Assembly: GCF_000317895.1 (NCBI RefSeq)
Contig: NC_019567.1
Span: 1,426,001-1,490,000, forward strand
Source: Bdellovibrio bacteriovorus str. Tiberius
Lineage (GTDB): Bacteria; Bdellovibrionota; Bdellovibrionia; Bdellovibrionales; Bdellovibrionaceae
Direction of reading: 5' to 3'
DNA length: 64,000 bases
Part shown: positions 47,455 through 49,392 of the stretch, piece after piece
Layout of the letters: each line of letters opens with the position of its first letter
Position numbering within the stretch: the first letter of the stretch is position 1
Program-made: the position numbers and the translations under genes
Notes under the pieces: generated by a model
The model's database searches: none
Told to the model about the DNA's origin: nothing
The model's input: the letters and a program-made list of their open reading frames with translations, nothing else

Positions 47455-47575
47455 GCCGTCAGTATTACGATTTATCCCCCAGGTGGGGAATTTACTGCAA
47501 CCCCCTTTAGCTCTATCAAAGTCCTGCCGAAAAGTTATACGAAATAACCAAAATAATTGAACGTAGGTGGTGGTT

Positions 47576-47845
47576 ATGAATACGGAGCTTGGCGCATTTG
47601 CGCTCAGGCAGGTGCTTGCCTCAACAGCAGTGTTAGGCCCGATCCTGATCTTGATCGGCCTTTGTTACTTCCTCTTTAACCAAAGCAGAAGAAGCGTGAC
47701 CTTATACATAGGCACGGGCTTGATTCTGACCGTCATCGGAGTCGCTTGTTTGTACTCCGAACTTCGCAGCGAAGACTCAAGAGTCCACAACGATGCGGCC
47801 ATCGAACAGGTCGAAGTCATCGCTGAGGAAGCTGTTCGGAAGTAG
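47576..47845 (+). CDS. Small two-helix membrane protein
   Basis: An 89-residue protein with two hydrophobic segments (about 15-34 and 43-62), then a short acidic tail. No family recognised. GTAGGTGG precedes the ATG. The last three codons and the TAG lie inside the left arm of the large palindromic repeat that follows. Confidence 0.65.
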   Translation: MNTELGAFALRQVLASTAVLGPILILIGLCYFLFNQSRRSVTLYIGTGLILTVIGVACLYSELRSEDSRVHNDAAIEQVEVIAEEAVRK

Positions 47846-48018
47846 TTCCTGAATTGCCTTGTCCGTCTTAGCGCGGGGATTTGCTTGCGAACTTGGCCAG
47901 TCCCAGCGCTGCGGGGGACGCCGTCCGGGCGCCGACAAAGCCCCCTTCGCGCTGGCACTGTCCAAGCTCACCAGCAAATTTGCGTTGTCCCAATCAATTC
48001 AGAAACTACTTCCGAACA
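47833..48018. repeat. Large imperfect palindromic repeat I
   Basis: The outer 24 bases (47833-47856 and 47995-48018) are inverted copies with one mismatch. Inside, further blocks match in inverted order (for example TTGGCCAGT against TTGGACAGT, and AGCGC with GGGGG near the centre), so the whole 186 bases can fold into one long hairpin. The left arm contains the stop codon of the membrane-protein gene. The core at 47921-47940 recurs, inverted, in repeat II with 18 of 20 bases alike. Confidence 0.75.
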
Positions 48019-48138
48019 TCTCATCACAAAGAAATCGGTTCAAAGGCATATCGTCGTTTACCTGCGCTCAAAAACAATGCGCTTCGAAGTTCTGCCGTAC
48101 TTGGCACCGAACATCGCGTGCCTGCGCAGTTAAGAATC

Positions 48139-48351
48139 CACTGATTGTTAGATATTTCCGAATGGAACAATTTGGATGGGGACTTGAGGGAGCCCGCCGC
48201 AGCGGTCTTTGCCGGCGCCCGGATGGCGCGAACTCGGCCCCGAAGGGGACGAGCGGCAACTGAGTCCGGATGGCGTACCGTGGAGGCGGGATCCCTCAAG
48301 ACCCCAGCCAAACCCCGCGCCACCCGGCAACTGACGAACCCACAATCAGTG
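48139..48351. repeat. Large imperfect palindromic repeat II
   Basis: CACTGATTGT (48139-48148) and ACAATCAGTG (48342-48351) are perfect inverted ends. Further in, a block of 36 bases starting TTTGGATGGGGACTTGAGGG pairs with its counterpart near 48281-48316 at about 30 positions, and the apex CTCGGCCCC/GGGGACGAG (48233-48253) closes the hairpin. The right end contains the stop codon of potD. It shares the 20-base core with repeat I. Between the two repeats (48019-48138) I see no gene. Confidence 0.75.
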
Positions 48352-49392
48352 AGTTTTAATTTCTGTCCAAGAGTCTTCGAAGAGCTTGTTTTTCTCGCCT
48401 TGGTCCTGGATTCGTTCTAGTTTTTTTAGAGTCGCTTCATCCGGGAACAGTGCGCTGTTGTTTTGCATTTCTTTTGGCAGGGATGCTTTGGTGTTTTTCA
48501 GGACAGGACCGCCCAAGATTGTTTTTACTCGGTTGATTTCTGCCTGTTCACTTAGCAGGAAGTTGATCAGCTTGTGGGCGGCTTCGGGGTGTTTGGCGCC
48601 TTTGATGATGACCAGGTTGTCGATGGTGAAGGTTCCGCCTTCGGTAGGGATGATGTATTCGATTTTGCCTGGGGACTTGTCTGCGGCTTGAAGGGCGTCC
48701 GAGGAATAGGTCTGGGCGGCAGCGACTTCCTTGTTGTTCAGGATGTCGATGGTGTCAGAGGCGAACATTTTTACGTTCTTTTTTGCCTTCAGCAGTGTGT
48801 CTTTGGCTTTTTTGATTTCTTCAGGGTTGGTGCTGTTCACGCTGAAGCCGTTCATTTTCAGGGCGGCGCCCAGGGTTTCGCGCACGTCATCCAAAAGGGC
48901 GAATTTGCCTTTCAGCTGTGGGTTTTCCAGAAGATCTTTCCAGCTTTTGATCGGGCCTTTGTAAAGATCGCGGTTCACGGCGATACCCGCAGTTGTCCAG
49001 ATGTACGGTAACGAAAACTTGTTCTCGGGATCGTAGTTCTGTTTCAGGAACTGAGGATCAATCAGGGTTTTGTTTGAAATCTGATCTTGCTTCAGTGTTT
49101 CCAGCAGATTCATTTTGGACATGACTTCAACCATATAGTCGGAAGGCACGGCCACGTCGATGCCGGAAGACCCCATCTGAACTTTTGCCAGCAGTTCTTC
49201 ATTCGAGGAATAGTTGGAGATATTGATCTTGATGCCGGTTTCTTTCTCGAACTGAGCCTGCAGTTCCGGGGAAAGATAGTTGCCCCAGATGGACAGGTTG
49301 ACTTCTTTGGCTTCAGAAACTTCAGCAGACTTTTTTGTACATCCCGCCAGCAACCCACAAAGAGCCAGGCCGGCCATCAATATTCTCGACAT
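48346..49392 (-). CDS. potD: Polyamine ABC transporter binding lipoprotein, PotD-like
   Basis: A 348-residue lipoprotein (LLAGC, Cys18) of the spermidine/putrescine-binding family: VNLSIWGNYLSPELQAQFEKETG, GIDVAVPSDYMVEVM, LPYIWTTAGIAVNRD and GTFTIDNLVIIKGAKHPEAAHKLINFLL. It should capture polyamines for the PotABC transporter next door. Unusually the gene is inverted relative to potABC, with only 29 bases between the two start codons. AAGGA precedes its ATG. The stop codon is inside palindromic repeat II. Confidence 0.92.
   Translation of the reverse strand: MSRILMAGLALCGLLAGCTKKSAEVSEAKEVNLSIWGNYLSPELQAQFEKETGIKINISNYSSNEELLAKVQMGSSGIDVAVPSDYMVEVMSKMNLLETLKQDQISNKTLIDPQFLKQNYDPENKFSLPYIWTTAGIAVNRDLYKGPIKSWKDLLENPQLKGKFALLDDVRETLGAALKMNGFSVNSTNPEEIKKAKDTLLKAKKNVKMFASDTIDILNNKEVAAAQTYSSDALQAADKSPGKIEYIIPTEGGTFTIDNLVIIKGAKHPEAAHKLINFLLSEQAEINRVKTILGGPVLKNTKASLPKEMQNNSALFPDEATLKKLERIQDQGEKNKLFEDSWTEIKTH

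Follow-up and report, generated by a model that had tools for sequence, protein, structure and literature searches.

Two large palindromes lie side by side between convergent genes of Bdellovibrio bacteriovorus str. Tiberius, and the outer arm of each contains the stop codon of the flanking gene. What kind of sequence takes this form, and how did the ends of two genes come to lie within it? The window that we analysed is a stretch of 64,000 nucleotides (positions 1,426,001–1,490,000 of a genome that is a single contig of 3.99 Mb). To the left of the twin palindromes, P1 and P2, is a plus-strand gene for a 92-amino-acid protein that has no Pfam family (open reading frame 47567–47845), and to the right is a minus-strand gene for a solute-binding protein (open reading frame 48346–49392). 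A sequence-only reading had described two imperfect palindromes of 186 and 213 bases, a core common to both in opposite orientation and a stop codon in each outer arm, and its description was accurate on all of these points (Table 1). The calculated fold energies are −96.9 kcal/mol for P1 (z = −6.5) and −113.7 kcal/mol for P2 (z = −6.1), and no shuffled sequence equalled either. An inverted-repeat search returned arms of 27 nt that are 93% alike in P1 and of 36 nt that are 83% alike in P2. The short common core, TTTGTCGGCGCCCGGACGGCG in P1 (47919–47939, minus strand) and TTTGCCGGCGCCCGGATGGCG in P2 (48208–48228, plus strand), is identical at 19 of 21 positions; no such match is expected by chance within the window.

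Table 1. Features of the twin palindromes, in window coordinates
Feature	Position	Strand or family orientation	Description or basis
P1	47833–48018 (186 bp)	minus	element copy, collapsed core
P2	48139–48351 (213 bp)	plus	element copy, full core
Genus-wide conserved core within P2	48201–48281	+	sequence comparison, model search
3′ end of the 92-aa gene (GTTCGGAAGTAG; stop TAG, 47843–47845), in P1 left arm	47834–47845	+	ORF list, sequence
Inverted copy of the 92-aa gene end, exact (12/12), in P1 right arm	48006–48017	-	sequence
3′ end of the solute-binding protein gene (stop TGA, 48346–48348), in and just past P2 right arm	48342–48359	-	ORF list, sequence
Imperfect inverted copy of the solute-binding protein gene end, in and just past P2 left arm	48130–48149	+	sequence

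Both members of the twin are worn copies of a repeat family. A search with the P2 core recovers additional copies, both elsewhere in this genome and in other genomes of the genus. A covariance model, R1, built from 29 copies and used for the family searches, has 347 matches in 23 of 24 genus genomes (0–32 per genome, 15 in this one), and in the window it matches P1 at 47895–47966 (minus, 22.8 bits) and P2 at 48181–48299 (plus, 84.6 bits). Because further copies and variation between genomes both exist, the earlier suggestion of a palindromic element family stands. Weaker sets of R1 matches come from beyond the genus: from three further genera in its taxonomic family, a second family in the class and a more remote family in the phylum. 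Two of the distant loci (L259 and L276) were mis-cut at contig edges in this comparison; most of the others share the plan of a core with NGGAN-type hairpin loops inside a long stem that pairs almost perfectly and is unrelated in sequence. An exact pattern, too strict to bound the range of the family, occurs in only two Bdellovibrio records among named genomes. We rejected a phage origin, as there is no match in phage records or, for the exact pattern, in viral contigs. A literature search, which reached few subscription journals, returned no description of the family, and this family of approximately 200-base elements is apparently undescribed so far.

Some copies are clustered. One distant relative (G271) has neighbouring copies with similar arms (C15:4120 and 4822; C25:17551, 20625 and 20759), which perhaps reflect recent local spread. 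A second dispersed repeat of approximately 80 nt, beginning ACGGAGGCGTGCTCCAAGCACGTCGGAGAGAAGGAGAAGCCCCGACAACGCAG, lies near G000:C1 2597525, in the right flank of L128, and in many other places; it has many matches at 80–93% identity in G000, G005, G015 and G023.

The family core is approximately 75–80 nt long and has five helices: a closing stem, an inner stem with two hairpins inside it, and one more hairpin, which is short. The long stem surrounds this core. The median length of the longest perfect run in this stem is 20 bp, and that of the palindromic span, for which arm length was bounded in the measurement, is 221 bp. The search for a common outer boundary returned motifs that are weakly conserved on the right in family orientation (CAAATCC and CTCGAAGC). 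P1 lacks 45 bp of the core relative to its orthologue in G005, in which it is P2 that lacks approximately 47 bp instead; the collapse in P1 falls between repeated CCGGAYGGCG segments. The 20-base core that was first noticed is the remainder that is common to one full and one collapsed copy. Collapse between two repeated NGGAYGGCG segments recurs (window 47895–47966; L033 1850–1921), and the member of the twin that is affected differs between species.

It had been proposed that the palindromes replaced the gene ends. On comparison with element-free relatives, we rejected this reading. The solute-binding protein gene is present in 15 genomes and adjoins the element in four: as the twin in G000, G005 and G023, and as a single copy in the corresponding intergenic position of G017. 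At most of the element-free loci, the two genes lie tail to tail and hardly any spacer separates them. The solute-binding protein ends in WTEIKTH* here and in WTEVKTH* at the empty site of G015, and it is the far arm that carries the inverted copy of the gene end. Because the ending of this protein is kept in empty-site genomes, we take the coding arms in the window as the originals; for the 92-amino-acid protein, the ending of which varies, we infer the same.

A second locus has a similar arrangement. The element is absent next to groEL in G008, G015, G000, G023 and G020 (the last with a different left neighbour) and present in G001 and G018. In these two genomes it is accompanied by a second, inverted version of the end of groEL that includes the stop codon and terminator and can be traced over approximately 120 nt, which shows that gene ends were copied in reverse rather than replaced. 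Orthologous sites are therefore polymorphic for insertion at both the solute-binding protein and the groEL loci. Across the family, inverted repeats in the outer flanks (45–190 nt outside the core) exceed the 99th percentile of a control of mismatched flanks in 23 of 117 copies, where approximately one is expected; between 175 and 300 nt outside the core there is no excess, and most copies have no clear inverted host DNA past the inner stem.

Some empty sites are losses, as the empty allele at site L065/G018 looks like a deletion between AAAATA repeats. Another candidate empty site, in G023 for the copy at G000:C1:1379438, was discarded because a degenerate copy, oppositely oriented, lies there (G023:C1:2536482–2536949). 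Opposite core orientations at one site in two close genomes are as expected from inversion between palindromic arms.

Simple open reading frame calls on both sides of 110 copies identified convergent neighbours for 55, co-directional neighbours for 50 and divergent neighbours for only 5. Minus/plus twins recur, as would fit one copy at each of two convergent genes. This concentration at the 3′ ends of genes is what would be expected of very long intrinsic terminators or bidirectional 3′-end structures, which had also been suggested for the twin. However, a scan for terminator-like sites (a GC-rich hairpin followed by a T-tract) found none at the outer ends of P1 and P2, and the element at the groEL site (L154/L138) sits between two ordinary hairpin-plus-T-run terminators, one on each side. 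The A- or T-runs that are enriched around the family occur in the flanks outside the stem, and termination needs no conserved core of 75 nt. We therefore give hardly any credence to a terminator function as the explanation of the family.

The conservation of the core fold raises a different possibility, a structured RNA family (a 3′ untranslated region element, sponge or small RNA) in which the core folds in the transcript, the long stem protects it and the NGGAN loops are perhaps shown to a CsrA-like protein. Not only the fold but also the unpaired bases of the core are conserved, and the NGGAN loops are retained in distant relatives. Among 105 copies we counted 426 two-sided changes in the core, with only 8 G.T and 3 A.C pairs in 2,598 cells. 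G-U pairs make up 0.3% of the core compared with 10.4% in the RNase P sequences of these genomes, where 105 changes are one-sided and 126, hardly more, are two-sided; although such counts are inflated by relatedness and the core alignment was fitted to the structure, the G.T contrast is still large. Covariation with almost no G-U points to arm-to-arm copying of DNA, and pairing in the core looks to be maintained at the DNA level.

The arms give a more mixed picture. Isolated mismatches in the inner arms, read on the family strand, comprise 33 G.T and 12 A.C; we prefer this count to that of all arm mismatches (184 G.T and 238 A.C), which is dominated by badly aligned outer parts. Together with the conserved unpaired bases of the core, the excess of G.T leaves room for selection on one folded strand, whether RNA or DNA. 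Against an RNA, the stem sequence is unconstrained, no Rfam family matches at threshold (the sub-threshold matches are at chance level) and a scan of the window region, a weak test, found no promoter-like site. On balance, a structured RNA is an unlikely account of the family.

The stems themselves are specific to their sites. Identity between copies is 0.53 in the arms, close to the 0.50 of shuffled arms, and 0.72 in the core. Arm identity is slightly higher within genomes (0.555) than between them (0.525) in pairs that are not independent, which fits spread together with some inner stem, followed by fast divergence. Between sister genomes, stems are rewritten in blocks while core and flanks are kept (L154/L138, L139/L142 and L165/L185). 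In L154/L138, flanks and core are nearly identical and the stems differ, each being self-complementary. In L139/L142, the right arm is identical, core and right flank are identical or nearly so, and a matching left arm is present in one genome only; this is the change of one arm in kept surroundings that template switching leaves, with a direction that is not polarised.

In one case the element lies in a gene leader, 52–56 nt upstream of the start of pilM (L123 at G000:C1:1673180, L195, L153 and L167). The stems of these copies from four genomes are different yet nearly perfectly complementary. The presence of a copy in the pilM leader would suit a structured RNA, and its retention at one place in four species suggests host use there; this copy was possibly adopted as a leader element.

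Mobility could in principle be conferred by RAYT (Y1) transposases acting on REP-like elements. The copies are intergenic hairpins that recur as pairs in opposite orientation, and Y1_Tnp is present in 21 of the 24 genus genomes. However, no Y1 gene adjoins a copy among the copies listed (the closest noted, in G004, is approximately 1.8 kb away), three genomes without a Y1 match (G007, G012 and G016) carry 13, 18 and 7 copies, and the copy numbers of Y1 and the element are uncorrelated (rho = 0.25, P = 0.25). With neither adjacency nor correlation, we rejected the elements as RAYT cargo, and the broader reading as REP-like elements mobilised in this way is quite improbable. The search for an autonomous partner covered Y1; neither a mobilising enzyme nor a target duplication or transposition intermediate came to light.

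We consider it probable that the twin belongs to a family of palindromic DNA elements that can insert but are not autonomous, and that template switching builds their arms and keeps them perfect. This process is known both to create and to maintain perfect stems (PMC8794818). The unit that is recognised and copied would be the core plus some inner stem. At a new site, DNA synthesis may switch strand at the hairpin and run back along the flanking host strand, copying it in reverse. Each arm of the hairpin could afterwards serve as template for the other by quasipalindrome template switching, by which a change in one arm would be written into the opposite arm. Insertions would survive mostly between gene ends. 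From these comparisons we infer the order of insertion events, that template switching is responsible and that the core is mobile.

More tentatively, we propose a snap-back element in which only the core and a little inner stem are mobile. On arrival, replication or repair might copy the neighbouring gene end backwards, so that the palindrome is built from local DNA; an inverted terminator could then pass to the opposing gene, and the stem would be continually rewritten by hairpin-templated synthesis.

The family provides a record, in nature and in replicate, of probable template switching at large hairpins of DNA; its hundreds of copies keep the core while the stem is rewritten. It also carries a warning that strong covariation by itself is no proof of RNA, with the near absence of G-U as a clue. 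Finally, it indicates a route by which tail-to-tail genes can acquire spacing and an inverted terminator.

Several known systems share parts of this description. ERIC-like intergenic palindromes are small, non-autonomous and non-coding, with inverted repeats that resemble one another across copies. MITEs (PMC2229807) likewise resemble our elements in being small, non-autonomous and intergenic, without coding capacity. Unlike in both of these groups, the inverted repeats here differ from copy to copy and the arms can include host DNA; the terminal inverted repeats that define MITEs are alike in all copies and match an autonomous transposon. REP, BIME and REPIN sequences with RAYT also comprise many intergenic palindromic repeats, often in opposite-orientation pairs. 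However, REPs, including GTAG- and CGTC-tagged ones, are 20–40 bp long with stems common within a family (PMC3733652, PMC3116915), whereas the palindromes here measure approximately 150–250 bp (median span 221 bp), have only the core in common, carry site-specific stems and have no adjacent RAYT gene. Hairpin-forming repeats of mitochondria (PMC2800124) and the coding palindromes of Nematomorpha mitochondria (PMC6649704) are likewise long hairpins that occur at many places and differ in sequence; they belong to organelle genomes, and the likeness is by description only. The closest parallel in process is quasipalindrome template switching (PMC8794818, PMC7202029), which yields two-sided changes, perfect stems and inverted copies of nearby DNA. 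That is a mutational process, whereas the family described here consists of elements with a conserved core.
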